33,676 nt of DNA, from the NCBI GenBank assembly GCA_020832005.1, contig JAFIFN010000031.1, positions 1 through 33,676 on the forward strand, read 5' to 3'. The stretch is from Gammaproteobacteria bacterium (lineage in GTDB: Bacteria > Pseudomonadota > Gammaproteobacteria > Steroidobacterales > PWYM01). The notes beneath the pieces are model-generated. The model was not told where the DNA came from. It did no database searches and saw nothing but the letters and a program-made list of their open reading frames with translations. Below, piece by piece: positions 7,192 to 26,829 of this stretch. The translations under genes were made by a program, and so were the position numbers. Numbering within the stretch: the first letter of the stretch is position 1; every line of letters begins with the position of its first letter.

Positions 7192-7351
7192 GATTCTATC
7201 GCTTGGCTGTTAATTTGACAGACCTCGCGGCAGGGAACTGGTTCGCTATACTCGCGGTCTTGTCTTGCGCGGGTCTGCATTCGTGCCGATGTCCCATCGC
7301 GGCGCCCGCACTGCGGCCACGCAGGCCTGAAGTCCCCCGGAGGCCTAACCC

Positions 7352-10300
7352 ATGCCATCAGTCCTGTCCGCTCGCCGCGCGTCGCTAGTCCTGGCGCTGA
7401 CCGCAGTGTTGTTTTCCTGCATCGCCCAGGCCGAAGAGACGCTGCTGCTGCGCTTCCCCACGCTGCACGGCGAGCAGCTGGTGTTCAGCCACGGCGGCGA
7501 CCTGTGGCGCAGTCCGGCCAGCGGCGGCACCGCCGTGCGCCTCACCGCCCATCCCGGGCTGGAGCTTTTCCCACGTTTCTCCCCGGATGGCACGCGCATT
7601 GCGTTCACTGCCCAGTACGATGGCGACGAACAGGTCTACGTGATGCCGGCCGGCGGCGGCGAGCCGCAACGCCTGACCTGGTATCCCGCCATGGGGCCGT
7701 TGCCCGATCGCTGGGGCTACGACAACCAGGTCTACGGCTGGACGCCCGATGGCGAGGGGGTGTTGTTTCGCAGCCTGCGCGACACGCATAACGTGGGGGC
7801 TTCGCGCCTGTACATCGCGCCGGTCGCCGGCGGCATGCCCGAAGCGCTGCCGATGACCCGCGCTGGTGGTGGTGCGCTGTCTCCGGACGGGCGACGCATC
7901 GTCTACTCGCCGCTGTTCCGCGACTTCCGCACCTGGAAACGCTACGAGGGCGGCTGGGCACAACAGCTCTACATGCTGAACCTGGACGGCAGCCAGGCGC
8001 AGCGCATCACCGACCATCCGCGCTCCCATCGCGATCCGATGTGGCTGCCCAGCGGCGTGTATTTCGTCTCCGATCGCGATGGCACGCTGAACATCTACCG
8101 CTATGACCCGGACAGCGGCGAGACCACGCAAATCACGCAGCATGATGAATGGGACGTGCGCTGGCCCAGCGCGGATGGCGGGCAGCGCATCGTCTACGAA
8201 CTCGGCGGGCGTCTGCGTATTCTCGATGTGGTCAGCGGCGAGGACCGTGCGGTGTCGATCACCGTGCCTTCCGATGGTGTGGCCAGGCGGCCCGCGCGCA
8301 TCAGCGTCAGTGACCGTATCCAGGAGGCGGTGCCGGCGCCCGACGGCAAGCGCGTGGCCATCGTCGCCCGCGGCGAGGTGTTCAGCGTGCCCGCCGAGCA
8401 CGGTCTGACCCGCAACCTCACGCGCAGCAGTGATGCCCACGAACGCGAGGTCACCTGGTCGCCCAAGGGTGATCGCCTGGCCTTCATCTCCGATGCCAGT
8501 GGCGAAGAAGAGCTGTGGGTGGTCGAGCAGGCCGGTGGCCAGCCGCGGCAGGTCACGCGTGACAGCGATACCCGTTACTTCCGGCCGCGATTCTCGCCCG
8601 ACGGCGAACGTATCGCGATGGTCAATGCGCGTAACCAGCTGCTGGTCGTCGATGTCGCCAGCGGGCGCATCACAGAAGTTGCGCGCGATCCCATCGAGAA
8701 CAACCGCGACCATGCATGGTCGCCTGACGGGCGCTGGCTGGCCTTCAGCATGAGCCAGCCCAGCGGCTTCAGCCGGCTGCACCTTTGGGAACGCGAGCGC
8801 GGCAGGCTGCACGCACTGGGTTCAGGCATGTTCCACGAACACACGCCGGCCTGGGATCCCGACGGTGGCCTGCTCTACTTCCTGGCGATGCGCGAGTTCC
8901 AGCCGCAGATCTCGCGCATCGAGTGGGACTTTGCGACCAACCGCGACACCGGCATCTTCGCCTACGCGCTGCGCCGCGATGTCGACAATCCCTTCGCACC
9001 GCGCAGCGACGAGGTCGGCGACAAGGCCGAGGGTGCTGACAACGACGACGAGCCTTCGGCGCGCGGCTCGCGTTCGCGTGGCAGCGATACCGGCAATACC
9101 GCGCTGCGCGTGGAACTCGACGGACTCGATCAGCGCGTAATCCGCGTGCCCGTGGAGGCCGATAACTACTCGCAGCTCACCGCCACCGGCACCCACCTGG
9201 TCTATGGTCGCAGCGATCCGTTCTACTACGGGCGTGATCCGGCCACGCGCCCGGCCGTGATGCTCTACGACCTGGAGAAACGCGAGGCCAGAACGCGCCT
9301 GGAGGATGTCGCAGCCTTCGCCGTGTCGGCCGACGGCAAGCAGCTGCTGGCCCGGCAGAACAACAGCTGGAAGCTCTTTCCGCTGGACAACGGCGATGGC
9401 AAGACGGTGTCGCTGGACGGGCTGATGATGGATCGCGTGCCGGCAGAGGAATGGGCGCAGATCTTCGACGAGGTCTGGCGGCGGTTTCGCGATCATTTCT
9501 ACGTCGCCAACATGCATGGCTATGACTGGGAGGCCATTGGTCAGCGCTATCGCGCGCTGCTGCCTCATGTGGCTCACCGTTCGGATCTCAACTACATCAT
9601 CGGCGAGATGATCGGCGAGCTCAATGTCTCGCATGCCTACAAGTCCGGCGGCGACCTGGCCCGGCCGTCGCGACCCACGGTATCGCTGCCGGGCGCGCGT
9701 TTCGAGCTCGATGAACGCGCCGGGCGCTATCGTATCGCCAGCATCTTTGCCGGGCAGAATGCCGAGGCCCGCTATCGTTCGCCGCTCACCGAGGTCGGCG
9801 TCGATGTGTCGGTCGGCGACTACGTGCTGGCGATAAACACCCATCCGCTCAGCGCGCAGGACAACCCCTACAGACTGCTGCATGCGGCGCGCGGCGCACC
9901 CGTGGAGCTGCGTGTCTCGGCCCGGGCCGACGGTCGCGATGCCCGCACGGTGCGCTTCGAGCCCGTCGAAAGCGAGCGCAACCTGATGTATCTGGCCTGG
10001 GTCACCGAGCGCTATCGCCAGGTCAGCGAGGCCACTGACGGCCGCGTGGGCTATCTGCATGTGCCGGACATGGGCGCCGACGGTATCCGCGAGTTCATCA
10101 AGTGGTTCTATCCGCAGATTCGCCGCGAGGGCCTGATCATCGACGTGCGTGCCAATGGCGGCGGCAATGTCTCGCAGATGCTGATCAATCGCCTGAACCG
10201 CGAGCTGCTCGGTGTCACGCATACGCGAAACCGGCAGCAGCCCAGCACCTATCCGAACATGGTCTTCACCGGACCGATGGTGACGCTGATCAACGAGACT

Positions 10301-10648
10301 TCGGCCTCTGACGGCGATATCTTCCCATGGAAGTTCCGCAAGGCCGGTCTTGGGCCGCTGATCGGCAAGCGCACCTGGGGTGGCATCATCGGCATCACCA
10401 ATCGCGGACCGCTGGTCGACGGCGGCGAGGTGTCTGTCCCGGAATTCGGCACCGCCGATGCCGATGGCAGCTGGGCCGTGGAGGGCGAAGGCATTGCACC
10501 TGACATCGACGTCGACAATGATCCGGTCTCCGAGATGCAGGGCCGCGATCTGCAGCTCGAGCGCGCCATCGAGGAGGTAGTTCAACGCATGCGTACGCAA
10601 CCCGCAGCCTTGCCGGCCCGGCCGGCCGATCCGGTGAAAACACCATGA
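7352..10648 (+). CDS. Exported tricorn protease homologue (S41 family, beta-propeller + PDZ + C-terminal peptidase core)
   Basis: Signal peptide; repeated SPDG propeller motifs; TSASDGDIFPWKFRKAGLGPLIGKRTWGGIIG tricorn-type catalytic region. Confidence 0.9.
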   Translation: MPSVLSARRASLVLALTAVLFSCIAQAEETLLLRFPTLHGEQLVFSHGGDLWRSPASGGTAVRLTAHPGLELFPRFSPDGTRIAFTAQYDGDEQVYVMPAGGGEPQRLTWYPAMGPLPDRWGYDNQVYGWTPDGEGVLFRSLRDTHNVGASRLYIAPVAGGMPEALPMTRAGGGALSPDGRRIVYSPLFRDFRTWKRYEGGWAQQLYMLNLDGSQAQRITDHPRSHRDPMWLPSGVYFVSDRDGTLNIYRYDPDSGETTQITQHDEWDVRWPSADGGQRIVYELGGRLRILDVVSGEDRAVSITVPSDGVARRPARISVSDRIQEAVPAPDGKRVAIVARGEVFSVPAEHGLTRNLTRSSDAHEREVTWSPKGDRLAFISDASGEEELWVVEQAGGQPRQVTRDSDTRYFRPRFSPDGERIAMVNARNQLLVVDVASGRITEVARDPIENNRDHAWSPDGRWLAFSMSQPSGFSRLHLWERERGRLHALGSGMFHEHTPAWDPDGGLLYFLAMREFQPQISRIEWDFATNRDTGIFAYALRRDVDNPFAPRSDEVGDKAEGADNDDEPSARGSRSRGSDTGNTALRVELDGLDQRVIRVPVEADNYSQLTATGTHLVYGRSDPFYYGRDPATRPAVMLYDLEKREARTRLEDVAAFAVSADGKQLLARQNNSWKLFPLDNGDGKTVSLDGLMMDRVPAEEWAQIFDEVWRRFRDHFYVANMHGYDWEAIGQRYRALLPHVAHRSDLNYIIGEMIGELNVSHAYKSGGDLARPSRPTVSLPGARFELDERAGRYRIASIFAGQNAEARYRSPLTEVGVDVSVGDYVLAINTHPLSAQDNPYRLLHAARGAPVELRVSARADGRDARTVRFEPVESERNLMYLAWVTERYRQVSEATDGRVGYLHVPDMGADGIREFIKWFYPQIRREGLIIDVRANGGGNVSQMLINRLNRELLGVTHTRNRQQPSTYPNMVFTGPMVTLINETSASDGDIFPWKFRKAGLGPLIGKRTWGGIIGITNRGPLVDGGEVSVPEFGTADADGSWAVEGEGIAPDIDVDNDPVSEMQGRDLQLERAIEEVVQRMRTQPAALPARPADPVKTP

Positions 10649-11589
10649 CGCGCGCAGGGTCGAGGCCATCGGCTCCGGCGGTCAGTCGCCGTGCCGTGCT
10701 GGCGGCCGGGGCGCTGGCCGCAGGCGTCCTGCCACTGGGCGTGCTGCGCGCCGGAGACTCGATGCGCCGCCGGGTCATACCGGCCAGCGGCGAGGCCCTG
10801 CCGGTGATCGGTGTGGGCACGGCGAGAACCTTTGATGTCGGTGATGGCGATACGCAGCGCATGGCAGCGTTGCGCGAGGTGCTCGCAGCCCTGCTGGACG
10901 GCGATGCCAGCGTGATCGATACCTCGCCGATGTATGGCGAAGCCGAACGCGTCATCGGCGAGCTTGCGCGCGAGCTGCCCGGTCGCGAGCGCATGTTCCT
11001 GGCGACCAAGGTCTGGACCCGCGGACGTGCGCAGGGCATTGAGCAGATGCGCCGCTCGCTGGAACTGCTGGGCGTCGATGCCGTTGACCTGATGCAGATC
11101 CACAATCTCGTGGACTGGCGCACGCACCTGGCGACGCTGCGTGCGCAGCAGGAAGAAGGTGTGTTTCGCTATATCGGTATCTCGCACTACCGCGTCGATG
11201 CGTTTTCGCAGGTCGCCGCGGTGCTGCGCGACGAGCCGTTGGATTTCCTGCAGATCAACCACTCGCTGATGACGCCGGAGGCCGAGCGCGAACTGCTGCC
11301 GCTGGCGGCCGATCGCGGCGTGGCGGTGATCATCAATCGACCCTTCGAGAACGGCGCGCTGTTCGCCCGCGTGCGTGATCATGAGGTGCCGGCCTGGGCC
11401 GTGGAAGCCGGCATGCCGACCTGGGGTCAGTACTTCCTGAAATTCATCCTCGCCCATCCGGCCGTTACCTGCGTGATCCCGGCCACACGGCGGCCCGAGC
11501 ACATGCTCGACAATCTGCAGGCAGGCTTCGGCGAGTTGCCTGACCGGACGATGCGTGAGCGTATGCGCGAGCATGTCGTGACGCTGTAG
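10645..11589 (+). CDS. Aldo/keto reductase with Tat-like signal
   Basis: [19 protein letters not shown] twin-Arg N-terminus; [17 protein letters not shown] and [13 protein letters not shown] motifs; ATGA overlap with the tricorn gene. Confidence 0.85.
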
Positions 11590-11600
11590 CGGCGCGTGCG

Positions 11601-11683
11601 GGCGTCACCTGCGGGAGGTCTTTGGCGGAATGGCTCCCTTCGGTCCGCTTTATTTCCGCCAAAGACCTCCCGCAGGCGACGCC
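11601..11683 (+). repeat. 83-bp intergenic palindromic repeat, copy 1 (30-bp arms, 23-bp spacer)
   Basis: GGCGTCACCTGCGGGAGGTCTTTGGCGGAA ... TTCCGCCAAAGACCTCCCGCAGGCGACGCC, 29/30 complementary; near-identical to the copy at 22235-22317. Confidence 0.95.
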
Positions 11684-11765
11684 AGCCGGGGCTCAAGCAA
11701 GTGAGTGTCTCGGTTTACCGGGGTTATCCTGCAGCGCGCGCAGCGGAGATAATCCCGGCATTCCG

Positions 11766-12521
<756 letters not shown>

Positions 12522-12525
12522 CGCC

Positions 12526-14883
12526 ATGAGCGTGCTGCATCGAAAGCTCGGCCGCGAGCTGCTGCGCATGTCCGGCCAGGCACTGGCGATTGCGCTGGTG
12601 CTGGCCAGTGGTGTCATGACCTATGTGCTGACCTCCACGTCACTTGCCTCGCTGCTGACGACCCAGGCGCGCTACTACAGCGAGTACCGTTTCGCCGACC
12701 TGTTCGTCGATCTCAAGCGTGCGCCCGAGCATGTCGGCGAGCGGCTGCGCGACATCGATGGTGTACGCAGCGTCGACACGCGCGTGGTCGCGATGGTGAA
12801 CATCGACGTGCCGGACTTCACCGACCCGGTCAGTGCGCTGCTGGTGTCGCTGCCCGACGAAGGCCAGCCGGCGCTGAATCGCATCTGGGTGCGCGAGGGC
12901 GCGCTGCCCGAGCGCGCCGACGAGGTGCTGATCAGCGATGCCTTCGCCGATGCCCAGTCGCTGGGCCCGGGCGACACGCTGGGGGCCGTCATCAACGGCC
13001 GCTGGCAGCGCCTGAGGATCTCCGGGGTCGGCGCCTCACCGGAGTACATCTACCAGATCAAGCCCGGCGACCTGTTCTTCGACTTCGAGCGCTTCGGCAT
13101 CCTGTGGATGCGCCGTCAGCCGCTGGCCACGGCGTTTGACCTGGATGGTGCGTTCAACAACGCGGTGTTCGCGCTGCGCCCCGGCGCCGATGCCCGCGAC
13201 GTCATCGCGCGCATCGACGACGTGCTCGAACGCTACGGCGGGCAGGGCGCCTATGACCGCGACGACCAGGTCTCGCACGGCTTCCTCGACACCGACCTGC
13301 AGAGCCTGGTGGTCATGAGCCGCGTGTTTCCCGCAGTGTTCTTCGGTGTTGCGGCCTTTCTGCTCAACGTCGTGATTGCGCGCATGCTTGCAGCCCAGCG
13401 CGAGCAGATCGGCATCCTCAAGGCCTTCGGCTACCGCAATGGCGAACTGGCCCTGCATTACATCCAGCTGGTGCTGGTGATCGTCGCGGTCGGCAGCCTG
13501 ATCGGCACGGCGCTGGGTGTGTGGCTGGGCCGCGGCATGGCCGGCATCTACGCCGAGTTCTATCGCTTCCCGTATCTCGACTACAGCCTGGATGTGGGTG
13601 TCGCGGTGATGGCGTTGACGATTGCCGCGCTGGCCGCACTCGCGGGCACAGGCCACGCTGTGCTGCGCGCCGCGCGCTTGCCGCCGGCCGAGGCGATGCG
13701 TCCGGAGCCGCCCTCGCGTTATCGCCGCTCCTGGCTGGAGCGCCTGGGTCTGGGCGGGTGGCTCGACCAGCCCAGTCGCATGGTGTTGCGCCATCTCGGC
13801 CGACACCCGCTGAAGTCCGCGATCACGGTGCTGGGTATCGCCATGTCCGTGGCGATCGTCATGCTGGCCCGCTTCCAGGTGAATGCCGTGGATGCGCTGG
13901 TGGAGTCGGAGTTCGGTCTGGCGGCGCGCGAGGACCTGACGGTGACCTTCACCGAGCCGACAAGCTACCGGGCCATGTTCGCACTGGCTGCCGAGCCGGG
14001 TGTCGGGCAGGTCGAGCCGATGCGCATGGTGCCGGCGCGTCTGCGTGCCGGGCATCGCGAGTATCGCCTGGCTATCCGCGGCCTGGTCGCCGAGCCGGAC
14101 CTGCACCGGCTGCTCGACATCCATCAGCAACCGATACGCCCGCCTGCCGAGGGCCTGCTGCTGACCAGCTACCTGGCCGACACGCTCGGCGTCGTGCCCG
14201 GGGATTCGCTGCAGGTGGAGATTCTTGAAGGCGACCGGCCGGTGCGCCAACTGCCGGTGGCCGGTGTCGTGCCCGAGTACATCGGCATGAACGCCTACAT
14301 GGAGCTCACCAGTCTCAATCGGCTGATGCGCGAGGGCAACGCCATCAGCGGCGTCTATCTGAAGGTCGATGCCGACGAGCGTGACCGGCTGTTCCAGCGC
14401 ATCAAGAACATGCCGCGGGTGGCCGGGGTGTCGATCCAGCGTGAGGCCGTGCGGAGCTTCGAGGAGGACATGGCCGGGACGGTGCTGATCTTTACGCTGG
14501 TGATGACGCTGCTGGCAATGGTCATTGCCGTGGGGGTGGTCTACAACAGCGCGCGCATTGCGCTGGCCGAGCGGGCACGCGAGCTTGCCAGCATGCGCGT
14601 GCTGGGTTTTCGTCGCGCCGAGATAAGTTACATCCTGCTCGGTGAGCTCGCATTGCTGACCCTGCTTGCACTGCCGCCGGGCTTTCTGATCGGCTATGGC
14701 ATGACGCACATGATTGCCACCGCACTGGGCACCGAGCTGTTCCGCATTCCAGCCGTCATCGCGCCGTCGAGCTTCGCGTTCGCAAGCTGCGTGGTGATGG
14801 CAGCAGCCATCGGCTCGGCCCTGCTGATCCGCCGAAGACTCAATCGACTGGACCTGATCGGGGTTCTGAAGACACGCGAATGA
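12526..14883 (+). CDS. FtsX-like ABC transporter permease (MacB-type)
   Basis: Two FtsX-like TM modules; immediately downstream of the ATPase gene. Confidence 0.9.
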
Positions 14884-14890
14884 GGACACC

Positions 14891-16081
14891 ATGAGCAGAA
14901 ACAAACTCCTGTTGCTGGGCTTGCTCACCGCGGCGATTATCGCGCTGCTGGTGATCGGCTTCGCACCGCAACCGGTACTCGTCGACCAGGCCCGCGTGGT
15001 GCGCGGCGCGATGGAGGTGATCATCGAGGAGGAAGGCCGCACGCGCGTGCGGGATCGCTACCAGGTCTCCGCGCCTGTGGGCGGGTATCTGCGGCGTATC
15101 GTCATCGAGCCCGGCGACCCGGTCACCGAAGACCAGGTGCTGGCGCTGGTCGCGCCGCTGCGACCCGAGGCGCTGGATCCGCGTCGGCGGGCGCAGGCGC
15201 AGGCAGCAGTCGCTGCCGCGCGCGCCAGCCTGCGCAGTGCCGAGAACCGCACGCGCGCGCTGGCCGCCGAGTCGACGTTCGCACAGAGTGAACTCGAACG
15301 CATGCGTCTGCTCGCCGTAGACGGCAACGTCTCACGCGCTGAACTGCAGCGTGCCGAGACGCTGGCGCGCAGTGCTGCCGAAGGCTTCGAAGAGGCAGAA
15401 GAACGCGTCGAGGTGGCGCGCCAGGAACTCAATGCCGCGCAGACGCAACTGGCCTATGCGGGCGCCGATGCCGATGACGTCGACAGTCTCGTCAGCGTGC
15501 GCTCGCCGGTCAACGGCCGGGTGCTGCGCCGTCACCGCGAGAGCGAAGGGGTGGTCGCAGGCGGCGAGTTGCTGCTGGAGGTTGCCGACACCGATGTGCT
15601 GGAGGTCGAGACCGATGTGCTGTCGGCCGATGCCGTACGCATCGCGGCAGGTCAGCCGGTACGTTTCGCGCGCTGGGGCGGGCCCGGGGAACTCGAAGGC
15701 GTGGTCCTGCGCGTGGAGCCGGCGGGTTTCACGAAGATCTCGGCGCTGGGGGTCGAGGAACAGCGCGTGTGGGTCATCAGCGAGATCACCGCACCAAGAG
15801 AGGATTGGCGCAGCCTCGGCGATGGTTTTCGCGTGGAGAGCCGGTTCGTTGTCTGGTCGGAAGACGACACGCTGGTTGCCCCGGTCAGCGCGGTGTTTCG
15901 CGAGGCTGACGGCTGGGCTGCGTTTCGTATCGAGAATGGGCGCGCACGCCTGGTGGCGGTGGAGATCGGCGAGCGGTCAGCGCTGCGGGTGCAGGTGCTC
16001 GATGGCCTTGCCGCGGGGGATGTCGTGATACCCCATCCACCGGAGCAATTGACCGACGGCAGTCGGGTCAGATCGCCCTGA
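14891..16081 (+). CDS. HlyD/MacA-type periplasmic adaptor (membrane fusion protein)
   Basis: N-terminal TM, coiled-coil AQAAVAAARASLRSAENRTRALAAE, lipoyl-like VRSPVNGRVLRRHRESEGVV; third gene of the efflux operon. Confidence 0.88.
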   Translation: MSRNKLLLLGLLTAAIIALLVIGFAPQPVLVDQARVVRGAMEVIIEEEGRTRVRDRYQVSAPVGGYLRRIVIEPGDPVTEDQVLALVAPLRPEALDPRRRAQAQAAVAAARASLRSAENRTRALAAESTFAQSELERMRLLAVDGNVSRAELQRAETLARSAAEGFEEAEERVEVARQELNAAQTQLAYAGADADDVDSLVSVRSPVNGRVLRRHRESEGVVAGGELLLEVADTDVLEVETDVLSADAVRIAAGQPVRFARWGGPGELEGVVLRVEPAGFTKISALGVEEQRVWVISEITAPREDWRSLGDGFRVESRFVVWSEDDTLVAPVSAVFREADGWAAFRIENGRARLVAVEIGERSALRVQVLDGLAAGDVVIPHPPEQLTDGSRVRSP

Positions 16082-16089
16082 GGCGTCAC
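16021..16089 (+). repeat. Direct repeat copy A (3' end of hlyD-like gene plus 8 nt downstream of its stop)
   Basis: 57/69 identical by eye to 18548-18616; encodes VVIPHPPEQLTDGSRVRSP*. Confidence 0.9.
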
Positions 16090-16221
16090 TCTGAAGCGAA
16101 CTATTATGTTAATGCGGTTACCTGGTTTTTGCTGGTTGGTCACCGATCAGAGATGCTCGCCGATAGAAGCTCGAAGCGGCGAAAACTTGTCGACGGCAGT
16201 CTGTTTAGTTGAGGGTGCGGA

Positions 16222-17049
16222 ATGGTGACGTCTCATGCAGAGCCTCCCGTCCGGTCCGCCATAACTTTTTTTGGCCTGACTTTCGGTATCGCCTGGGGCG
16301 TCATGGGGCTCGCCCTGGCATTCCAAGACACCGTCGAAGCCGCGCTGGGGCCGATGCGTGCCTCGCATCCGCTGTTTATCCTCGCCGTTTGGTCGCCTGC
16401 CATTTCTGGCATCTTGCTTGTGCTCTGGTATGGCAGGCTGCCCGGCTTGCGCCGCTACTTCTCGCGCCTGCTGCTATGGCGGGCTCCGGTCGGCTGGTAT
16501 CTTTTGCTGCTCATCGGTCTGCCCGCGGTTTCGTACCTTGGGGCTGCACTTGGTGGCACGCTTACGCGCGAAGCATTGGCCCAGCCGCCGCTTCCGGAGT
16601 TGCTGGCGCTGGCCGGCTTCATGCTGATCCTTGGACCCGTGGAAGAACTCGGCTGGCGGGGCTACGCTACACCACTGCTGCAGCGCCGGTTGGCACCGTT
16701 CTGGGCAGGGCTTGTGGTGGGTGTCTTCTGGGCGCTTTGGCATGTCCCGGCTTTTTTCCTCGGCGGCACGCCGCAGAGTGGCTGGGAGGTCATGCCCTTC
16801 CTGCTGGGCGCCACCGCCGTAAGCGTAATTCTTACAGGGTTCTTCAACGCCGCGCGGGGCAGCATCCTGGTGGCGATCCTGTTTCACTGGCAGCTCAACA
16901 TGCCGATGTGGCCAGATGCCCAACCCTGGGACATGTATCTCTTCGTCGTGCTTGCCGCGATTGTCGTCTGGATGAAGCGCGTCGAGATGTTCAGCAGAGA
17001 AGGTGCAGTGACGCAAGTCATGTCGGCCGGCCAAGGAGGACTACGATGA
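16222..17049 (+). CDS. CPBP family intramembrane metalloprotease
   Basis: EELGWRGYATPLLQ, FWALWHVPAFFLGG and FHWQLN motifs in a multi-TM protein. Confidence 0.88.
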   Translation: MVTSHAEPPVRSAITFFGLTFGIAWGVMGLALAFQDTVEAALGPMRASHPLFILAVWSPAISGILLVLWYGRLPGLRRYFSRLLLWRAPVGWYLLLLIGLPAVSYLGAALGGTLTREALAQPPLPELLALAGFMLILGPVEELGWRGYATPLLQRRLAPFWAGLVVGVFWALWHVPAFFLGGTPQSGWEVMPFLLGATAVSVILTGFFNAARGSILVAILFHWQLNMPMWPDAQPWDMYLFVVLAAIVVWMKRVEMFSREGAVTQVMSAGQGGLR

Positions 17050-18251
17050 ACAACCGCCTCCTTCGTATCGCCGCCTGGACCTTCGGAGGGCTCGCCGTAC
17101 TGGCCTTCGCCGGATTCCTGTGGCTGCGCCAGAGTCCCTACTGGGCCGGGATCACGCTGTTTGCAGAGTCGCAGCGGGTCGAGAACTTCCGCGCCATGGA
17201 CCGGGTATTCCCGTCGCGGGCAGTGCCGCACGGCGGTCCGGTCTGGGCCTTCGAGCGCGATCCACGTGCCTTGCCGGAGACCTATGACTTCAATGACGAC
17301 GAGCGCGAGCTGAGCGCCTTTCTGGACCGGACCGTGACCACCGGCCTGCTGGTCGTCCACCGAGGCGCGATTACCCATGAGGAATACCGCCTCGGTGCCG
17401 ATGAAGCCTCGCCCTTCACCTCATGGTCGATGGCAAAGTCATTCCTGTCCGCACTGATCGGCATCGCGCTGGAGGAGGGGCACATTGCCAGCATCCGCGA
17501 CTCCATCGGCCGGTATGTCCCGGCGCTGGCGGGGTCGGGCTACGGCGATGTGTCACTCGAGGATGCGCTGACCATGTCCTCGGGCGTGGCGTTCAACGAG
17601 GACTACGACAACCCGTTTTCCGACATCAACATGCTGGTCTGGCGAGCAATGGCGATGAGCCAAACTGCCGAGCAGACGCTCTCTGGCTTGGGCCGGCTGC
17701 GTGATTCTGGCACGTTCAACGATTACATCAGTTCCGACAGCATTGCGCTGGGTCTGGTGCTGGAGTCCGCTACGGGGATGCCGCTTGCCGAGTACCTGGC
17801 CAGCCGCCTCTGGGGCCCGATGGGGGCCGAGGCGGATGCGACCTGGAGCACCGACCGCACGGGGCGCGAATTCGCGCACTGCTGCCTGAACGCGACCCTG
17901 CGCGATTACGCCCGCTTCGGGCGCCTCTATCTCGAGGGCGGGGCGCGGATGGGGCAACAGATCGTGCCCGCCGAATGGGTCCTGGCCTCGGTCAACCCCA
18001 CGGCCCCGCATCTGCAACCGGGCCAGAACCCGGCCAGCAGCTGGACCTTCGGCTATGGCTACAAGTGGTGGATCCCCGAGCACCCACAGGGCGATTTCAC
18101 CGCCATCGGGGTCTGGGGGCAATACATCTACATTGACCCCGCGCGCGAGGCGGTCATCGTCAAGACAAGCGCCGATCCGGATTTTGACAACAATGATCAC
18201 GAGAGCATCGCCGTCTTTCGCGCAATCTCTCAGGCGCTGGCAGGGCAGTGA
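17046..18251 (+). CDS. Serine hydrolase (class C beta-lactamase/penicillin-binding-protein-like)
   Basis: SMAKSF (SxxK) motif; beta-lactamase-fold sequence; ATG at 17046 overlaps the CPBP stop (ATGA). The ORF track start at 16209 is an upstream out-of-context extension. Confidence 0.85.
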   Translation: MNNRLLRIAAWTFGGLAVLAFAGFLWLRQSPYWAGITLFAESQRVENFRAMDRVFPSRAVPHGGPVWAFERDPRALPETYDFNDDERELSAFLDRTVTTGLLVVHRGAITHEEYRLGADEASPFTSWSMAKSFLSALIGIALEEGHIASIRDSIGRYVPALAGSGYGDVSLEDALTMSSGVAFNEDYDNPFSDINMLVWRAMAMSQTAEQTLSGLGRLRDSGTFNDYISSDSIALGLVLESATGMPLAEYLASRLWGPMGAEADATWSTDRTGREFAHCCLNATLRDYARFGRLYLEGGARMGQQIVPAEWVLASVNPTAPHLQPGQNPASSWTFGYGYKWWIPEHPQGDFTAIGVWGQYIYIDPAREAVIVKTSADPDFDNNDHESIAVFRAISQALAGQ

Positions 18252-18294
18252 CTACCCTGAGAATAATGGTCAGGTTAGCTAAGGTGTATACGTC

Positions 18295-18555
18295 ATGCTG
18301 TTCACAAGGCTGGCTGTGATGATGCTGGTTGAGGAAGGGGTTCTGGACCTGCACGCCGATGTGGCGGGCTACACGCGCGAAACCGAGGTGCCCGGCTTTG
18401 AGCAGCTGACGCTCGCCCAGCTGATGAGCCACCGCCCGGGCTATGAGGATACCTATGAGCAGTTCGTGCAAGCCCGCATCCTCGACCCGCTGGGGATGGG
18501 CGCCACCACCTATAGCGAGGCAACCGCGCGCCCTGACCAGCCGCCGCTGTCGTAA
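18295..18555 (+). pseudogene. Degraded fragment of a second beta-lactamase-family serine hydrolase
   Basis: LFTRLAVMMLVEEGVLDLHADVAGYTRE...LTLAQLMSHRPGYEDTYE then directly QFVQARILDPLGMGATTYSEA; no SxxK start region, central part missing, C-terminus truncated. Confidence 0.75.
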
Positions 18556-18616
18556 TTCCGCATCCGCCGGAACATCTCACCGATGTCAGTCGGGTCAGAT
18601 GACCCTGAGGCGTCAC
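18548..18616 (+). repeat. Direct repeat copy B, relic of a hlyD-like gene 3' end
   Basis: Translates in the matching frame to VVIPHPPEHLTDVSRVR*, versus VVIPHPPEQLTDGSRVRSP* in copy A; most differences are at third codon positions. Confidence 0.85.
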
Positions 18617-18693
18617 GGGGCCCAGACACGACAGCATCGCTCCGAGACCGGCTCCGAGGACTAAAGCGGATTCCGGTCTCTTGTAGCAAGACA

Positions 18694-18709
18694 GATTATA
18701 CGTATAATC
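18694..18709 (+). promoter_or_regulatory. 16-bp perfect palindrome GATTATACGTATAATC overlapping a TATAAT -10-like hexamer; candidate toxin-antitoxin operator
   Basis: Perfect dyad 30 bp upstream of the antitoxin ATG; contains TATAAT at 18703-18708; a weak TTGTAG -35-like hexamer lies 16 bp upstream. Confidence 0.6.
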
Positions 18710-18738
18710 CGGACATCTGCTTTGAAAGGCCAGATGCC

Positions 18739-18993
18739 ATGCCAATAGTTGGGTCGCTTGAGTTCCAGCGCAGGTTCGGAGAGTTCCAGCATCAGGCACA
18801 GCGCGAGCCGGTCGAGATCACCCGGCACGGACGGCGAGAGTTCGTGCTCATGTCGGCCGATCACTATGACTGGCTCAGGGCCGCCGCCCAGCGAAGTCAC
18901 CAAACAGCAGACGCTGCCGATGTGGTGATCAGCGCGGTGGAGCGTGCGGAGATGGACCCGGAGCATGCCCATCTTGATGAACTGCTGAAGTAG
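18739..18993 (+). CDS. Phd/YefM-family antitoxin
   Basis: MPIVGSLEFQRRFGEFQHQAQREPVEITRHGRREFVLMSADHYDWL is Phd/YefM-like; in-frame ATG inside ORF 18583..18993. Confidence 0.8.
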   Translation: MPIVGSLEFQRRFGEFQHQAQREPVEITRHGRREFVLMSADHYDWLRAAAQRSHQTADAADVVISAVERAEMDPEHAHLDELLK

Positions 18994-19003
18994 CGCAAGG
19001 TTC

Positions 19004-19423
19004 GTGGGGCTCCCCGAACCAAGGCCCGGCCTCGTCATCCGCTACGACTACCTCTGGACCCATGAGGCGGCTGCTGGCCGGCCGCAGGGCAAGGACCGCC
19101 CGACCTGCCTTGTTGCAGCGACCGATGCGCTGGTGCGCCCGCGTCATGTCGTCCTGCTGCCGATCACCCACACGCCGCCTTCCGGCGATACGATCGAGAT
19201 CCCGGCGAAGGTGAAGCAAGCTATCGGGCTTGATGACGACGCGAGCTGGGTTATCGTGTCGGAACATAACATCGACGAATGGCCCAACGGCGGGCTGTCA
19301 CCTGTGCCCGGCAAACCGAACACGTTCAGCTACGGCTTCATTCCGCCGGGGCTGTTTGCGAAGATAAAGGCCAGCTTCCTCGCACTGGCCAGAGCGAAGA
19401 AGAGCAACCCCGTCCGCCGCTGA
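19004..19423 (+). CDS. PemK/MazF-like toxin (putative)
   Basis: PRPGLVIRYDYLWTHEAAAGRPQGKDRPTCLVA...VVLLPITHTPP resembles PemK-like plasmid maintenance toxins; 10 bp gap after antitoxin; GTG start. Confidence 0.7.
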   Translation: MGLPEPRPGLVIRYDYLWTHEAAAGRPQGKDRPTCLVAATDALVRPRHVVLLPITHTPPSGDTIEIPAKVKQAIGLDDDASWVIVSEHNIDEWPNGGLSPVPGKPNTFSYGFIPPGLFAKIKASFLALARAKKSNPVRR

Positions 19424-19490
19424 ACGACGCCGGCATCGCGGAATCGATCATGATTCCAAACGCCATAGCGCAAGCTTCGGCCACCCCGTC

Positions 19491-20930
19491 TCAGCTGGCT
19501 GACGCGGCAGCCGTCGGATGTCCGTGCAAGCCCTCGAGTGTCACCAGGTCGATCCCGTCTCCGTGCGCCGGCTCGGTGACCGCCGTGCCAAAGTCATCGA
19601 CCAGGCGCTGCGCCAGTGCTGCGCGCGCAGCGGGTTCGCCATGGATCAGCCAGGTCGGCGGCGCCGGCTCGAAACTCCCATACCAGCGCAGCAGTTCGCG
19701 CTGGCCGGCATGCGCCGACATGCCACCGACGGTATGTACCTGGGCCTCCACGCGCATCGCCTCGCCATGGATGCGCACCCAGGGCTGACGCTCCACCAGC
19801 CGGCGGCCCAGCGTGCCGCGGGCCTGGAAGCCGACGATGACGATATGGCACTCCGGGCGCCAGACATTGTGCTTGAGGTGGTGGAGTACGCGACCGCCAC
19901 TGCACATGCCGCTGCCGGCGATGATGATCGCGCCCGAGCGGACATGGTTCAGGCGCATGGACTCTTCCGGTGATTTGCACAGTGTCAGATTCGGCAGCGG
20001 TGGCATGAAGCTCTTCGCCGTGGACAGCTCACGGGTCTCCTCGTCGTGGAGTTCGGAGTGGCTGATGTAGAGCTGGCTGGCCTGGATGGCCATCGGGCTG
20101 TCGAGGTAGACCTTCCACCGCTCCATGCCCCAGTCATCCCAGTGCTTGCCGAACAGGTAGAGCAGGTCCTGCGTCCGGCCCACGGCGAACGCCGGAATGA
20201 TGATATTGCCGGCATCGTGATCGGCAGAGGTCAGGATGTCCTTGAGTTCGGCCAGCGTGGCCTCGTGGCTGCGATGATCGCGATCACCGTAGGTGCTCTC
20301 CATGATCAGCGCATCGGCCTTCGTGATCGCGGCCGGATCGCGCACGATCGGCATGTCGTAGCTGCCAAGGTCACCGCTGTAGATCAACGTGCGGCGCAGC
20401 CCGTCATGCGTCAATTCCAGTTCGATCGATGCGGCGCCGAGGATGTGGCCGGCCTCGTGCAGGCGCAGGCGTACGCCCGGCAGCAGGTCTTGCCAGGCGT
20501 CGAAATCCAGGCTGCGGAACTGTCGCAGGGTATCGGCGACATCGTCTGCGCCATACAGCGGCTCGACCGGCGGCAGGCCCTTGCGTGCGCGGCGCCGGGA
20601 TTCGAGTTCGGCATCGCGGCGTGACAGCGATGCCGAATCCGGCAGCAGCACGCGGCACAGCCCGCGCGTGGCGCGATGGGTGTAGATCGGTCCGCGATAG
20701 CCGCGACGCACCAGCAGCGGCAGCCGCCCGGAGTGGTCGATGTGCGCATGCGAGAGCACGACGGCATCCAGCCGCGTCGGGTCGAAGGCAAAGTCCTGGG
20801 CATTGCGGGCTTCATCCGCACGCGAGCCCTGGATCAGCCCGCAGTCCAGCAACAGGCGCATGCCGTTGATCTCGACCAGGCAGCACGAGCCGGTGACCTC
20901 GCCGGCCGCGCCGAGAAATTCCACTTTCAA
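19491..20930 (-). CDS. MBL-fold metallo-hydrolase with beta-CASP/RMMBL-type architecture (RNA-processing nuclease-like)
   Basis: LSHAHIDHSGRLPLLVRRGYRGPIYTH, YSGDLGSYDMPIVRDP, ESTYGDRDH, MSAHAGQRELLRW motifs. Confidence 0.9.
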   Translation of the reverse strand: MKVEFLGAAGEVTGSCCLVEINGMRLLLDCGLIQGSRADEARNAQDFAFDPTRLDAVVLSHAHIDHSGRLPLLVRRGYRGPIYTHRATRGLCRVLLPDSASLSRRDAELESRRRARKGLPPVEPLYGADDVADTLRQFRSLDFDAWQDLLPGVRLRLHEAGHILGAASIELELTHDGLRRTLIYSGDLGSYDMPIVRDPAAITKADALIMESTYGDRDHRSHEATLAELKDILTSADHDAGNIIIPAFAVGRTQDLLYLFGKHWDDWGMERWKVYLDSPMAIQASQLYISHSELHDEETRELSTAKSFMPPLPNLTLCKSPEESMRLNHVRSGAIIIAGSGMCSGGRVLHHLKHNVWRPECHIVIVGFQARGTLGRRLVERQPWVRIHGEAMRVEAQVHTVGGMSAHAGQRELLRWYGSFEPAPPTWLIHGEPAARAALAQRLVDDFGTAVTEPAHGDGIDLVTLEGLHGHPTAAASAS

Positions 20931-21104
20931 GATTGCATTCCTCCCGATATGGCGTCCCGCCGCGCGTCAAGACGCTCATCGACCGCCGCGCAGATACAGT
21001 CGCCGAGTCTAGCAGCGCCGCCCCGTGATGTTGTGGACACTGCGCGTCCTGCCTGCATACACTGGCAGCAAGCGCAGCTCGCGCGATGCCACAGGACGGA
21101 TCCC

Positions 21105-22229
21105 ATGGCCAGAAACCTGCAACACGACATGCTGCCGCGCGCGGACGCCGAAGACCTGGCGCGCCAGCGCTATGTGCTGGCGCTGAAGACGCATCTCGGC
21201 CGGCGGCTGCGACCCGGCAACGCGGTGATCTGGGAGCGCGCGGTCAAGCCCGCCTTCGAGCGGGTCCACGGACATGCGCCCACCGAACGCGGCGACATCG
21301 CCGACGCCATGTACGCCCATCCCGGCTACCAGAGCTGGAGTGCGCTCAATCGCGTCGCCCAGGAGCTGATGTGGGAGTCGGTCGGCGAAGCGGTGTTCCG
21401 CGAGTCCGATCGCATGTCCGCCGAATACCGGCGCCTGCATGACAGCCGTCCCGCCGGCGGTTCGCTCGACCTCGACGAGGACTTCGAGGTGCCCAAGGCG
21501 ATCCGGCGCATAAACATCCATCTCCAGCCCGGCGGCTATGCCAGGGATGAAAGCCCGGACGATGTCATCGCAGGCGCGTTCTACGAAGCCGGCGGCGCCC
21601 TGTATTCGATGGGCCAGTCGATCGGCACGCGCGAGTCGAAGGCGCAGATCGTGCAGCGCTACCTGGCCGAGCGCTATCCCGACTTCAAGCCTGGTCGCGT
21701 GCTTGATATGGCCTGTTCGGCGGGCGCGTCGTCGGTGCCCTACGCACTGGCCTGGCCCGAGGCCGAAGTTCACGCCATCGACGTGGGTGCCGGCATGCTG
21801 CGCTACGCCCATGCCCGGGCCGAGGCGCTTGGCGCACGCGTGCATTTTCACCAGCGCGATGTCGCCAGCACGGGTTTCGAGGCCGGCAGTTTCGACCTGA
21901 TCGTCTCGCACAACGCCATGCACGAGATGTCACAGGTCACCCAGGCGGCCATGATGCGCGAGTGCTTCCGGCTGCTGGCCCCCGGCGGGGTGTGCGTGCA
22001 CCAGGACGTGCCGCTGCGCTACGAGGAACTCGACGAGTTCATGCGCTTCGAGCGAGGCTGGGACCTGAAGAACAACAACGAGCCGTTCTGGGAGGCCTAC
22101 GCCACCAACGACCCCGCGCAGATGCTCCGCGACGCCGGCTTCCCCGAAGCCGAAATCCACGTCGGCTACCTCGACCAGAGCGACGGCTCCATGAAGTGGT
22201 TCATCGCCGCAGCACGCAAACCCGGCTAA
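21105..22229 (+). CDS. Class I SAM-dependent methyltransferase
   Basis: VLDMACSAGASSVPYAL (motif I), VHAIDVGAGMLRYAH, FDLIVSHNAMHEM; start at MARNLQHDML inside ORF 20676..22229. Confidence 0.85.
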   Translation: MARNLQHDMLPRADAEDLARQRYVLALKTHLGRRLRPGNAVIWERAVKPAFERVHGHAPTERGDIADAMYAHPGYQSWSALNRVAQELMWESVGEAVFRESDRMSAEYRRLHDSRPAGGSLDLDEDFEVPKAIRRINIHLQPGGYARDESPDDVIAGAFYEAGGALYSMGQSIGTRESKAQIVQRYLAERYPDFKPGRVLDMACSAGASSVPYALAWPEAEVHAIDVGAGMLRYAHARAEALGARVHFHQRDVASTGFEAGSFDLIVSHNAMHEMSQVTQAAMMRECFRLLAPGGVCVHQDVPLRYEELDEFMRFERGWDLKNNNEPFWEAYATNDPAQMLRDAGFPEAEIHVGYLDQSDGSMKWFIAAARKPG

Positions 22230-22234
22230 GGGGG

Positions 22235-22317
22235 GGCGCCACCTGCGGGAGGTCTTCGGCGGAAATAAAGCGGACCGCAGGGAGCCATTCCGCCGAAGAC
22301 CTCCCGCAGGTGGCGCC
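22235..22317 (-). repeat. 83-bp intergenic palindromic repeat, copy 2 (perfect 30-bp arms; inverted orientation by its spacer)
   Basis: GGCGCCACCTGCGGGAGGTCTTCGGCGGAA ... TTCCGCCGAAGACCTCCCGCAGGTGGCGCC, 30/30; reverse-complemented spacer matches copy 1 at 22/23. Confidence 0.95.
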
Positions 22318-22346
22318 GACGAGCCTGAAGTCAGTAGCTACCGAGC

Positions 22347-22766
22347 CTAACCGCGATACGTCTGCAGGTGAATGCTGGTCTCAGTGGCCGTGATCCCCCT
22401 GATCTTGCGCACCCGCTCCAGCGTCTCTGCCAGCGCCTGCAGATTGCCCACCCGCAGCTCGGCCAGCAGATCCCAGCGCCCGTTTGTATCGTGCAGCGCC
22501 TCCACACCAGGCTCACCGAGCAGCGCCCGGATCACCGCCTGCTGATGGCCTTCGACCGCGATGCTGCACCAGGCGCGGATGTCGTCGCGCATGGCATCCG
22601 GGCGCAGCCGCACCGTGTAGCCGGCGATGACACCCTCGCGTTCCAGCCGCGCCATGCGGTTGGTGATGGTGCCGCGTGCCACGCCCAGGTTTTGCGCCAG
22701 CTGCGCGATTGAGGCGCGCGCATCGTGACGCAATTGCGCGATCAGGGCCTGGTCGAGAGCGTCCAT
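22347..22766 (-). CDS. Lrp/AsnC family transcriptional regulator
   Basis: MDALDQALIAQLRHDARASIAQLAQNLGVARGTITNRMARLEREGVIAGYTVRL, classic AsnC HTH plus RAM domain. Confidence 0.93.
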   Translation of the reverse strand: MDALDQALIAQLRHDARASIAQLAQNLGVARGTITNRMARLEREGVIAGYTVRLRPDAMRDDIRAWCSIAVEGHQQAVIRALLGEPGVEALHDTNGRWDLLAELRVGNLQALAETLERVRKIRGITATETSIHLQTYRG

Positions 22767-22913
22767 TCTGTCATTATACCATCAAGCTCTGCTCTTTTAA
22801 TCAGAAAACTGACATTAAATAGCATATTTTGGCGTTTTAAATAACACCGCGCCTTGGGATACTGTGCAGGTCGATTCAACAGTTGCCAGGATTTCATCCC
22901 GCAAGGAGCCCGT
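22767..22913. promoter_or_regulatory. AT-rich divergent regulatory region between Lrp-family and ornithine cyclodeaminase genes
   Basis: Pronounced AT-rich stretch (TTTTAATCAGAAAACTGACATTAAATAGCATATTTTGGCGTTTTAAATAA) in high-GC context, between divergent genes. Confidence 0.6.
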
Positions 22914-23957
22914 ATGACTGCCCTGCTCACCACCCAAGACGTCTCGCGCATCGTCGCCAGCATCGGCCTGCCGGCGTTTCTGGCGCGCATGGTCGACTAT
23001 CTCGAGGCTGACTTCCGGCGCTGGCCGGACTTCGACAAGTGCGCACGTGTCGCAGCGCACTCGGAAGTCGGGGTCATCGAGCTGATGCCGGTGTCCGATG
23101 CCAGCGAATACAGCTTCAAGTATGTCAACGGCCATCCGAAGAACACCCGCCGGGGACTGCCCACGGTGATGGCCTTCGGCGTGCTTGCCGATGTCGAGAC
23201 CGGCGAGCCCACGCTGCTCAGCGAACTGACGCTGACCACGGCGATGCGCACGGCCGCCACCTCGGTGATGGCGGCACGGCCGCTGGCACGCGCCGATGCG
23301 CGTGTCATGGCGCTGATCGGCAACGGCGCCCAGAGTGAGTTCCAGGCGCTGGCCTTCCATCACCTGATGGGTATCGATGAGCTGCGCCTGTTCGACGTCG
23401 ATCCGCGCGCCACCGACAAGCTCATGGCCCACCTGGCCGGCATGCCCGGTCTGCGCGCGATCCGTTGTGCCAGCATCGCCGAGGCCGTGCGGGGTGCGGA
23501 TATCGTCACCACCGTGACGGCCGACAAGACCAACGCGACGATTCTCACCGCCGATATGCTCGAGCCGGGCATGCACATCAACGGCATCGGTGGCGACTGC
23601 CCGGGCAAGACCGAACTTGCCGCCGGTGTGCTCGAGCGTGCGCGCGTGTTCGTCGAGTACGAGCCGCAGACACGCATCGAGGGTGACCTGCAGCAGATGC
23701 CCGCGTCCTTCGCGGTGACCGAGCTCTGGCAGGTGCTCACCGGTGCGGCCGAGGGCAGGACCTGCGCCGACGAGATCACCGTATTCGATTCTGTCGGCTT
23801 CGCGCTCGAGGACTACTCGGCGCTGCGGCTGCTGCGCGACTGTGCACGCGAGCTCGGTCTTGGCGCCGAGGTCGGGCTGATTCCGCAGCTGGCCGATCCG
23901 AGGGATCTCTACGGCCACCTCACGGGCGGGCGGGCCGTAGCACGCAAGGTCGCCTGA
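22914..23957 (+). CDS. Ornithine cyclodeaminase family protein
   Basis: TLTTAMRTAATSVMAARPLARADARVMALIGNGAQSEFQALAF and GADIVTTVTADKTNATIL motifs of the OCD/mu-crystallin family. Confidence 0.9.
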   Translation: MTALLTTQDVSRIVASIGLPAFLARMVDYLEADFRRWPDFDKCARVAAHSEVGVIELMPVSDASEYSFKYVNGHPKNTRRGLPTVMAFGVLADVETGEPTLLSELTLTTAMRTAATSVMAARPLARADARVMALIGNGAQSEFQALAFHHLMGIDELRLFDVDPRATDKLMAHLAGMPGLRAIRCASIAEAVRGADIVTTVTADKTNATILTADMLEPGMHINGIGGDCPGKTELAAGVLERARVFVEYEPQTRIEGDLQQMPASFAVTELWQVLTGAAEGRTCADEITVFDSVGFALEDYSALRLLRDCARELGLGAEVGLIPQLADPRDLYGHLTGGRAVARKVA

Positions 23958-23972
23958 CGCGTTTTCACCCTT

Positions 23973-24033
23973 GGCGACCGCGGCCCTCAGGCGACCGCGG
24001 CCCTCAGGCGACCGCGGCCCTCAGGCGACCGCG
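23973..24033 (+). repeat. 17-bp tandem repeat (GGCGACCGCGGCCCTCA), about 3.5 copies
   Basis: Three exact units at 23973-23989, 23990-24006, 24007-24023 followed by partial GGCGACCGCG; lies between two convergent genes. Confidence 0.95.
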
Positions 24034-24044
24034 ACGTCGATGCT

Positions 24045-26246
24045 TCAGTTCGCCTCGACCTCGATGCCCATGACGTCGAACAGGAACGCGAACTCGCGCG
24101 CGGTATCGCGCAGGCGCTGAAAGCGTCCCGACTGCCCGCCGTGGCCGGCGCTCAGGTCGGTGAACAGCAGCAGGCGGTTGTCATCGGTCTTGCGCTCGCG
24201 CAGCCGTGCCACCCACTTCGCAGGCTCCCAGTACTGCACGGCCGGATCCCACAGCCCCGTGCCGACATAGATGTGCGGATAGTCCTGGGCGGTGACGTTG
24301 TCGTAAGGCGAGTAGGCCAGCATGATCCGGTAGAACTCGGGATCGTTGGGATTGCCCCACTCATCGTATTCAAAGGTCGTCAGCGGGATGCTTTCATCGA
24401 GCATGGTCGTGACCACGTCGACGAAGGGCACACCGGCGATCGCCGCCGTGAACAGGTCCGGCCGCATGTTCAGCACCGCGCCCATCAGCAGGCCGCCGGC
24501 GCTGCGCCCCGAGATGGCCACGCGCTCGGGATCGCCCCAGCCCTGCGCCAGCAGGTGCTCGGTGACATCGATGAAGTCATTGAAGGTGTTCTGCTTGTGC
24601 GCTAGCCGACCACGCTCGTACCACTGCCGGCCCATCTCCTCGCCGCCGCGGATGTGCGCGATGGCATACACGAAGCCACGATCGACCAGTGACAGCCGGT
24701 TGGCGCTGAAGGTGGGATCGATCGAGATGCCGTAGGAGCCATAACCGTAGACGAACAGTGGATTGCTGCCGTCGGGCGTCGTGCCGCGCCGATACATCAA
24801 CGTCACGGGCACCTGCTCGCCGTCGCGCGCGGGGGCATACAGGCGCTCGGTCACGTAGTTGTCCGGATCGAAGTCGCCGACCACCTCGTCGCGCTTGAGC
24901 AGCGTGCGCTCGCCTGTGACCATGTCGTAGTCGTACACCGTATAGGGCGTGGCCATCGAGCTGTAGCTGTAGCGCAGCACGGTGGTGTCCATGGACGGAT
25001 TGACGTCGATCTCGGCGGTGTAGGCGCCCTCATCGCTGTCGATATAGAACTCGTCACCCGCCTCGGGCATATTGCCATCGCCAAGCGGCATCACCCGCAG
25101 CTTGAGCATGCCGCCGGTACGCTCCTCGAGCACCAGGTGCTCACGAAACAGCGAGAAGTCCTCGATCATCGCCGTGTCGCGGTGCGCGATCACCTCTTCC
25201 CAGGTGGACTTGTCGGCGCTGCTGGCGAGAGGGCTGCGCATCAGCCGGAAATTCTCGGCCTGCCAGTTGCTGCGGATCCACAGTGTGTCGCCCACCGGTT
25301 CGATGAAATACTCGTGGTCGCGCTCGCGGGGCAGCACCACGATCGGTTCGGCGTCCGGCCTATCCGTCGGGATCAGTCGCGCCTCGCTCGAGACCGTCTG
25401 CAGGGAATACATGACGATGTACTCATCCGAACGTGACCGCGACAGCACCATGTAGAACTGCGGATCGCTTTCCTCGTAGATCAGCACATCGTCGGCAGGC
25501 TCGCTGCCGCGCCGATGCCGCCAGGCCTGGTAGGGAATCAGCGTGTCGGCCTGCTGGCGTACGTAGAACAGCGTCTCGTTATCATCCGCCCAGGCCAGGC
25601 TGGTGCTGATGTTCTCGATGCGCGTGGGCAACTTGTCGCCCGACTCCAGATCCTTGATGCGCAGCGTCCACTCGCCGCGGCTGACGGTGTCCTCGGCGAA
25701 GGCCAGCCAGCGACCGTCGGGGCTAACCGACAGCGCGCCGACCTGGTAGAAATCATGCTCGGCGGCCAGCGTGTTGACGTCGAGCATGATCTGCTCGGGC
25801 CCCTCGGCGCTGCCACGGCGACGCGCATAGATCGGGTGTTCGCGGCCTTCCTCGTAACGCCGGTAATACCACCACTCACCACGCTGGTAGGGCACGCTCG
25901 CGTCATCCTGGCGGATGCGGCCGACGAGTTCGTCGAAGAGCAGCTGCTGCATCGGCTCGGTGTGCGCCAGCACCGCCTGCGTGTAGGCGTTTTCCGCGGC
26001 CAGATGGGTCAGCACTTCCGGGTCCTGGCGGGAATCGTCGCGCAGCCAGTAATAGGGATCGATGCGCACGTCACCGTGCGCCTCGAGCTCGATCGGGCGC
26101 TGTTCGGCCACCGGGGCGGTGGCCCGGGTCGTGGCGGGCGCGGCGCTGTCGGGGTCGGGCATCTTGTCGGTGTCGGCGTTGGAGCAGGCCGTGCACCATG
26201 CCACGCTGCAGGCCAGTGCGAAAGTGCGCAGGTTCAGGAAGGGCAT
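24045..26246 (-). CDS. S9 family peptidase (oligopeptidase B-like), probably exported
   Basis: RIDPYYWLRDDSRQDPEVLTHLAAEN, GRSAGGLLMGAVLN nucleophile region, AGHGGQSGR His region; N-terminal hydrophobic signal ending in Cys-rich TACSN. ORF track start is 26396. Confidence 0.9.
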   Translation of the reverse strand: MPFLNLRTFALACSVAWCTACSNADTDKMPDPDSAAPATTRATAPVAEQRPIELEAHGDVRIDPYYWLRDDSRQDPEVLTHLAAENAYTQAVLAHTEPMQQLLFDELVGRIRQDDASVPYQRGEWWYYRRYEEGREHPIYARRRGSAEGPEQIMLDVNTLAAEHDFYQVGALSVSPDGRWLAFAEDTVSRGEWTLRIKDLESGDKLPTRIENISTSLAWADDNETLFYVRQQADTLIPYQAWRHRRGSEPADDVLIYEESDPQFYMVLSRSRSDEYIVMYSLQTVSSEARLIPTDRPDAEPIVVLPRERDHEYFIEPVGDTLWIRSNWQAENFRLMRSPLASSADKSTWEEVIAHRDTAMIEDFSLFREHLVLEERTGGMLKLRVMPLGDGNMPEAGDEFYIDSDEGAYTAEIDVNPSMDTTVLRYSYSSMATPYTVYDYDMVTGERTLLKRDEVVGDFDPDNYVTERLYAPARDGEQVPVTLMYRRGTTPDGSNPLFVYGYGSYGISIDPTFSANRLSLVDRGFVYAIAHIRGGEEMGRQWYERGRLAHKQNTFNDFIDVTEHLLAQGWGDPERVAISGRSAGGLLMGAVLNMRPDLFTAAIAGVPFVDVVTTMLDESIPLTTFEYDEWGNPNDPEFYRIMLAYSPYDNVTAQDYPHIYVGTGLWDPAVQYWEPAKWVARLRERKTDDNRLLLFTDLSAGHGGQSGRFQRLRDTAREFAFLFDVMGIEVEAN

Positions 26247-26394
26247 CGGTGGCTCCGGGTCATCAGGGGGGGCATCCAGGCGACCGGGCGGGCGCCTTCG
26301 GCATGATAGGCTTACGCGCATATTTTTTCGAATCACGGTTGCCGTCGGCGCGACAGGTCGCGGCGGATTTTGCAGTTTGCACAAGGAGCGCAGC

Positions 26395-26829
26395 ATGCAG
26401 GGCTTTCCCCATCACTACCATGTCCAGGCCAGCGCGCCGCCGAGTGGCGATGTCACCCTCGCCGCCGATGGCCTGCCGGCGTTGGCCACCCAGCCGCCGG
26501 CCGAGTTCGGCGGTCCAGGTGATCGCTGGTCGCCGGAGACACTCCTGACGGCCGCGGTGGCCGACTGTTTCGTGCTGGGTTTCCGCGCCATCGCGGCGGC
26601 CTCGAAGTTCGAGTACACGCGCCTGGACTGCTCTGTCGAGGGTGTGCTCGACCGGGTCGAGCGCGTCATGCGTTTCACCGGCTTCACCGTGCGCGCCCGC
26701 CTGCTGCTGCCCGCCGGCGCCGATGAGGCGCGCGCCAGGCGCCTGCTCGAGAAGGCTGAAGACAGCTGCCTGATCACCAATTCGCTGTCGGCAGAAACGC
26801 ACCTCGAGGTCGAACTGGCCACGGGCTAG
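26395..26829 (+). CDS. OsmC family protein
   Basis: SPETLLTAAVADCFVLGFRAIA and CLITNSLSAETHLEVEL. Confidence 0.88.
   Translation: MQGFPHHYHVQASAPPSGDVTLAADGLPALATQPPAEFGGPGDRWSPETLLTAAVADCFVLGFRAIAAASKFEYTRLDCSVEGVLDRVERVMRFTGFTVRARLLLPAGADEARARRLLEKAEDSCLITNSLSAETHLEVELATG

Follow-up and report, generated by a model that had tools for sequence, protein, structure and literature searches.

An orphaned 3' end of an efflux adaptor gene in a mosaic accessory region of a gammaproteobacterial genome

Introduction

Orphaned 3' ends of genes are known from T6SS modules and from Rhs loci, for which both a model of their formation by homology-facilitated illegitimate recombination and the rarity of such events have been described (PMC5361080). 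The homology-facilitated process has been demonstrated experimentally, at low frequency, and single-crossover integration of circularised incoming DNA has been reported in E. coli (PMC3240628). A gene end may also be left beyond an integrated prophage: prophage e14 in the E. coli icd gene leaves a 163-bp pseudo-icd end (PMC6379469).

A locus that resembles these systems is described here. It lies in a window of 33,676 nucleotides, i.e. the whole stretch of DNA that was analysed, and consists of two tails from a single gene family, with coding-type divergence between them and non-ancestral cargo enclosed by them, all within a variable region. The scar is real, it is of a known and ordinary kind, and it is situated inside a mosaic accessory region.

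The adaptor gene and its repeated tail

The intact gene at the left of the scar (14891–16081, plus strand) encodes a periplasmic adaptor of the HlyD_3/RND_mfp type (PF13437, 53 bits) and is the third gene of an operon in the order ABC, FtsX/MacB-type permease, adaptor. The adaptor scores 103.6 bits against TIGR01730 (RND/MFP-type periplasmic adaptor), above the curated cut-off of 94.9, and 62.6 bits against the MacA equivalog NF008606, below the curated cut-off of 342. The operon order is kept in relatives, with the ABC gene in 87 and the FtsX permease in 96 of 98 homologous loci. The closest adaptor among the matches listed is about 53% identical in amino acid sequence, and the adaptor versions of same-genus genomes are 44–45% identical to the present one.

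The last 19 codons of this gene, its stop codon and the 8 nt that follow constitute copy A, or tail A (16021–16089, plus strand). At a spacing of 2527, and on the same strand, they are matched by copy B, or tail B (18548–18616), with 57 of 69 positions identical in an ungapped alignment; the coordinates and the count given in the original prediction were exact when recomputed. Overall identity is 83%, and the repeat includes two fully identical 14-nt blocks, 14 nt being also the longest identical run. As had been noticed earlier, identity spans the stop of copy A and 8 nt beyond it, after which the alignment ends abruptly. The flanks outside the repeat are unrelated (18/60 identical on the left and 24/130 on the right), and no weak homology past the repeat was found in the two downstream flanks. 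The divergence within the repeat is uneven, with 10 differences in the 39 positions of the left part and two in the 30 of the right part (Fisher P = 0.055).

The view that copy B is not a random repeat was confirmed by a best ungapped score of 242 for the pair, whereas 40 Markov shuffles reached no more than 121; when the pair is masked, the best score in the window drops to 84. The right part of the repeat, 30 nt in length, has exactly two occurrences in the window; the shuffles contain none, even with three mismatches allowed. In a search of the whole 4.18-Mb genome copies A and B were the sole two, and nothing else similar was present. An assembly artefact is an unlikely source of the repeat, the longest identical run being shorter than what would confuse assembly at common word lengths.

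Translated in the HlyD frame, copy B reads VIPHPPEHLTDVSRVR*, which is taken as the stranded 3' terminus of another adaptor gene homologous to the first. The differences between the copies (n = 12) are distributed over the codon positions as nine third, two second and one first (binomial P = 0.005), in agreement with the earlier remark that most of them are third-position changes. This distribution shows that copy B diverged from copy A as protein-coding sequence under selection in the adaptor frame. Tail B today has no expected or evident function.

Origin of tail B among adaptor tails

A match of this kind might reflect no more than a common adaptor-protein motif, as the original prediction had itself allowed. 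One part of that objection stands, in that adaptors across the family, as seen in the homologous loci, end in a conserved motif, HPx(D/E)x(V/L)xDGxRV. It applies weakly, because the DNA of the two tails agrees at 43 of 55 nt, whereas the other tails in the 98 homologous loci reach at most 34/55 to A and 32/55 to B; tails A and B are mutually nearest in this set. Likewise, a degenerate pattern fitting both tails, used in a tail-specific search of 369 genomes of the class, returned two matches only, namely A and B. Tail B therefore derives from a close homologue and not from the family motif; the gene that it terminated resembled the present adaptor far more than do the homologues found, the 44–45% identical same-genus versions included. 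The probability that chance similarity or the shared motif accounts for the match is practically negligible: conservation of the motif at the C terminus is what speaks for it, but the score is twice the shuffle maximum, every other family tail falls well short of the DNA identity between A and B, and this identity runs beyond the stop codon. For the match at the DNA level, chance and motif were both ruled out by the shuffles together with the 98 homologous tails. The proposal that copy B was once coding sequence of a homologous adaptor gene is thus upheld by the third-position bias, the shared frame and the mutual nearness of the two tails.

The cargo between the tails

Three coding features, all on the plus strand, are found between the tails. 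The first is a CPBP-family (Rce1-like) intramembrane protease gene (16222–17049; PF02517, 1.8e-13), whose best relatives are 46–52% identical; a relative on an Acaryochloris plasmid is 51% identical. Its stop is overlapped (ATGA) by the start of a serine hydrolase gene (17046–18251; PF00144, 4.9e-30; best relative in the order 49%), like a coupled pair. The third is a relic of another PF00144 protein (18295–18555; PF00144, 1.5e-13 over 49 residues), which lacks its N terminus, has suffered an internal deletion and has a frame that closes at a TAA created by the junction with tail B. Compared with the adjacent serine hydrolase, the relic shows no significant similarity (z −0.2) and is not alignable. 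It was also tested as a remnant of a hydrolase that had been the partner of the CPBP gene, and the similarity was at family level only.

The codon usage of the CPBP gene is atypical (0.07, compared with 0.24–0.42 for core genes), that of the serine hydrolase is not, and GC content is low (51%) in 16082–16221. Profile tests of open reading frames detected no integrase, excisionase or phage gene on either strand of the 2.46 kb between the tails, where no replication or mobilisation gene was found either; inverted repeats in this interval are few and weak. No RNA families were detected within 15900–19500.

The CPBP relatives on the Acaryochloris plasmid (L199), in genome G410 (L204) and on another contig (C132) of the genome described here are 46–51% identical, and each is followed by a PF00144-type hydrolase. 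These three hydrolases, mutually 50–68% identical, belong to a subfamily other than that of the hydrolase described here, and in G479 the CPBP relative has no PF00144-type hydrolase after it. Judging from these pairings, the CPBP–hydrolase pair thus recurs, and the one between the tails represents a recurring unit with exchangeable hydrolases, here a different one. The CPBP gene on C132 (L205, G000:C132:4367-5146), i.e. the second of this genome, is 46% identical to that between the tails and precedes a PF00144-type hydrolase of the other subfamily.

The variable region and its neighbours

The scar is part of a larger segment that differs between related genomes. A TonB2-type gene (5728–7191) and an MBL-fold gene (19491–20930) are direct neighbours in G001, G003 and G004, all of the same genus, and the DNA between them here, 7192–19490, is therefore a variable region. 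Only the left part of it is kept in a fourth genome, G002, in which a tricorn-type protease 67–68% identical to the present one is located beside the TonB2 gene (contigs C172 and C162) and is apparently followed by unrelated genes, the protease gene itself being split by a contig break; the variable region was so probably built in at least two steps. The tricorn-type protease gene of the window occupies 7352–10648 and adjoins the TonB2-type gene.

CPBP, serine hydrolase, relic and toxin–antitoxin genes were found beside the adaptor in none of the 98 homologous loci. An arrangement in which CPBP and hydrolase genes are ancestral neighbours of the adaptor, which had been named at the outset as a finding that would speak against an insertion, is ruled out by this count.

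To the right of tail B lies a toxin–antitoxin module (18695–19423 with its upstream sequence, plus strand), formed by a Phd/YefM antitoxin gene (18739–18993; PF02604) and a probable PemK-like toxin gene (19004–19423). The putative toxin has no Pfam or NCBIfam match; the name rests on plasmid neighbours, a related plasmid protein being called PemK-like. The stretch 18695–19423 is 82% identical in DNA to plasmid pBEN of the alphaproteobacterium Paracoccus versutus over exactly that length, with sharp borders, and a Rhizobium plasmid matches the greater part of it at 72%. The match with pBEN starts 78 bases after tail B and stops at the stop codon of the partner gene. On sequence evidence the module was acquired independently, and the DNA bordering the scar on the right can therefore not be taken simply as ancestral.

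Other differences from the sister genomes occur outside the variable region. Two blocks lack a counterpart in the short spacers that separate the MBL, OsmC and M61 genes of G001, G003 and G004, namely 21090–26396 (methyltransferase, Lrp regulator, ornithine-cyclodeaminase-like gene and prolyl oligopeptidase) and 26871–30112 (PLP aminotransferase and a second prolyl oligopeptidase). An XRE-like gene (1918–2391) has a low GC content (52%) and atypical codon usage, and its neighbours are about 130–200 bp apart in sister genomes; it looks like another small acquisition.

Formation of the scar

Tail B is read here, with about an even chance of being right, as what remains of a resident adaptor gene, namely its 3' end, displaced when the gene recombined with incoming DNA. 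The incoming DNA would have carried a related ABC–permease–adaptor operon together with other genes. Its left side would have paired with the resident operon by homology, and its right side would have joined by illegitimate or short-homology recombination within the last codons of the resident adaptor gene. The incoming adaptor would have replaced the resident one, and the resident remnant of 69 nt (last coding and stop-flanking bases) would have been pushed downstream of the new cargo. The toxin–antitoxin module, and possibly the serine hydrolase too, would be separate arrivals. The identity of the resident tail, the direction of replacement and the mechanism of recombination are what we infer from this arrangement.

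Several observations support displacement: a leftover 3' end, diverged as coding sequence, is located 2.5 kb downstream of the intact copy on the same strand; the cargo is not an ancestral neighbour (none of the 98 loci) and is missing at the syntenic place in G001, G003 and G004; and the atypical codon usage of the CPBP gene and the 51% GC in 16082–16221 are accompanied by a plasmid-type right neighbour with sharp borders. The extension of about 8 nt beyond the stop fits displacement without requiring it. On the other hand, the adaptor operon has a codon usage normal for the genome, and nothing marks it as newly arrived; the rarity of the known mechanism also counts against displacement. Neither a donor nor a resident allele was found in the genomes searched. 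No uninterrupted adaptor running into the sequence after 18616, and no close relative of this adaptor, was present in 397 genomes of the order, searched at both the protein and the DNA level, or among the species-level GTDB matches listed from single-protein and alignment scans of genome contigs (best about 53% in amino acids among the matches listed); the tail pattern in the 369 genomes of the class had the same outcome. The original prediction, in which the DNA between the copies had been inserted at the hlyD end, is thus retained for the non-ancestral nature of the cargo and partly supported as regards an insertion, a single insertion of 16090–18547 being conjectural: the unit absent from most sister genomes is larger (7192–19490) and the DNA on the right was acquired separately. 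It had left a choice between homology-facilitated integration and the loss of a duplicate; integration is favoured, and the loss of a duplicate is kept as a rival.

A duplicated operon that was later lost would account for many of these observations as well, and is a possible, if unlikely, origin of tail B. The adaptor, or the operon, would have been duplicated or acquired twice side by side, and both copies would have stayed functional until they differed to about 80% DNA identity; a deletion would then have left the last 69 bases of the second copy, fusing the hydrolase relic to the tail. A period with both copies functional is what the coding-type divergence of B from A needs, and local deletions are indicated by the relic that adjoins tail B on the left, itself shortened and with part of its interior lost. 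Against this, the 98 homologous loci include no tandem adaptor pair or tail repeat (best self-match 36/60 nt), and no trace is left of a second ABC or permease gene. Site-specific integration at the gene end, of the e14/icd type, seems rather improbable. The element would have supplied a gene end of its own (tail A), repairing the gene by way of synonymous changes, and tail B, the original end, would have been moved to the far side. It would give the same geometry of repaired gene end, cargo and displaced near-synonymous tail, and the two identical 14-nt blocks could serve as a crossover core, but no integrase, excisionase or phage gene accompanies the cargo and the inverted repeats are few and weak. 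Site-specific integration sites at gene ends are usually in conserved genes, unlike the adaptor gene, which is accessory.

A Campbell-type event is very improbable. If a circle with no more of an adaptor gene than a 3' fragment had integrated by a single crossover, a full gene, the cargo and a second 3' fragment would result, and the repeat would break off sharply on its left against unrelated cargo, which is what is observed at 18547/18548; the single-crossover integration reported in E. coli was counted in its favour. It requires, however, a circle with short homology of 83% identity, poor for RecA, and replication and mobilisation genes were not found between the tails. Finally, tails A and B would be the ends of a small, undescribed mobile unit that targets the 3' ends of efflux adaptor genes, sparing the host gene by means of a near-synonymous gene end; this is hardly credible. 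Displacement of a resident tail thus remains the preferred reading.

Comparison with known systems

A small scar as well preserved as this one suggests that accessory efflux operons may be swapped or extended by recombination that leaves tails behind, as is known for polymorphic toxins, and an orphaned tail is useful for reading mosaic regions.

In gene order and domains the operon is like other ABC – FtsX/MacB-type permease – HlyD-type adaptor operons, but its nearest adaptors among the matches listed are at most about 53% identical and the MacA equivalog score is not reached. The likeness to e14 in icd is striking, since in both cases a near-synonymous duplicate of the gene 3' end lies beyond inserted DNA while the main gene is functional. 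However, e14 is a 15-kb prophage with site-specific attachment, whereas here 2.5 kb of unrelated genes are present, with no integrase and no demonstrated empty site. The orphaned ends of Rhs/CDI and T6SS effector–immunity loci share with this locus an intact family gene, new cargo and a leftover homologous 3' end. Those loci encode polymorphic toxins; the present one encodes an efflux adaptor, its orphaned tail measures only 69 nt, no immunity gene is kept, and a single locus stands in place of a strain series showing the steps.
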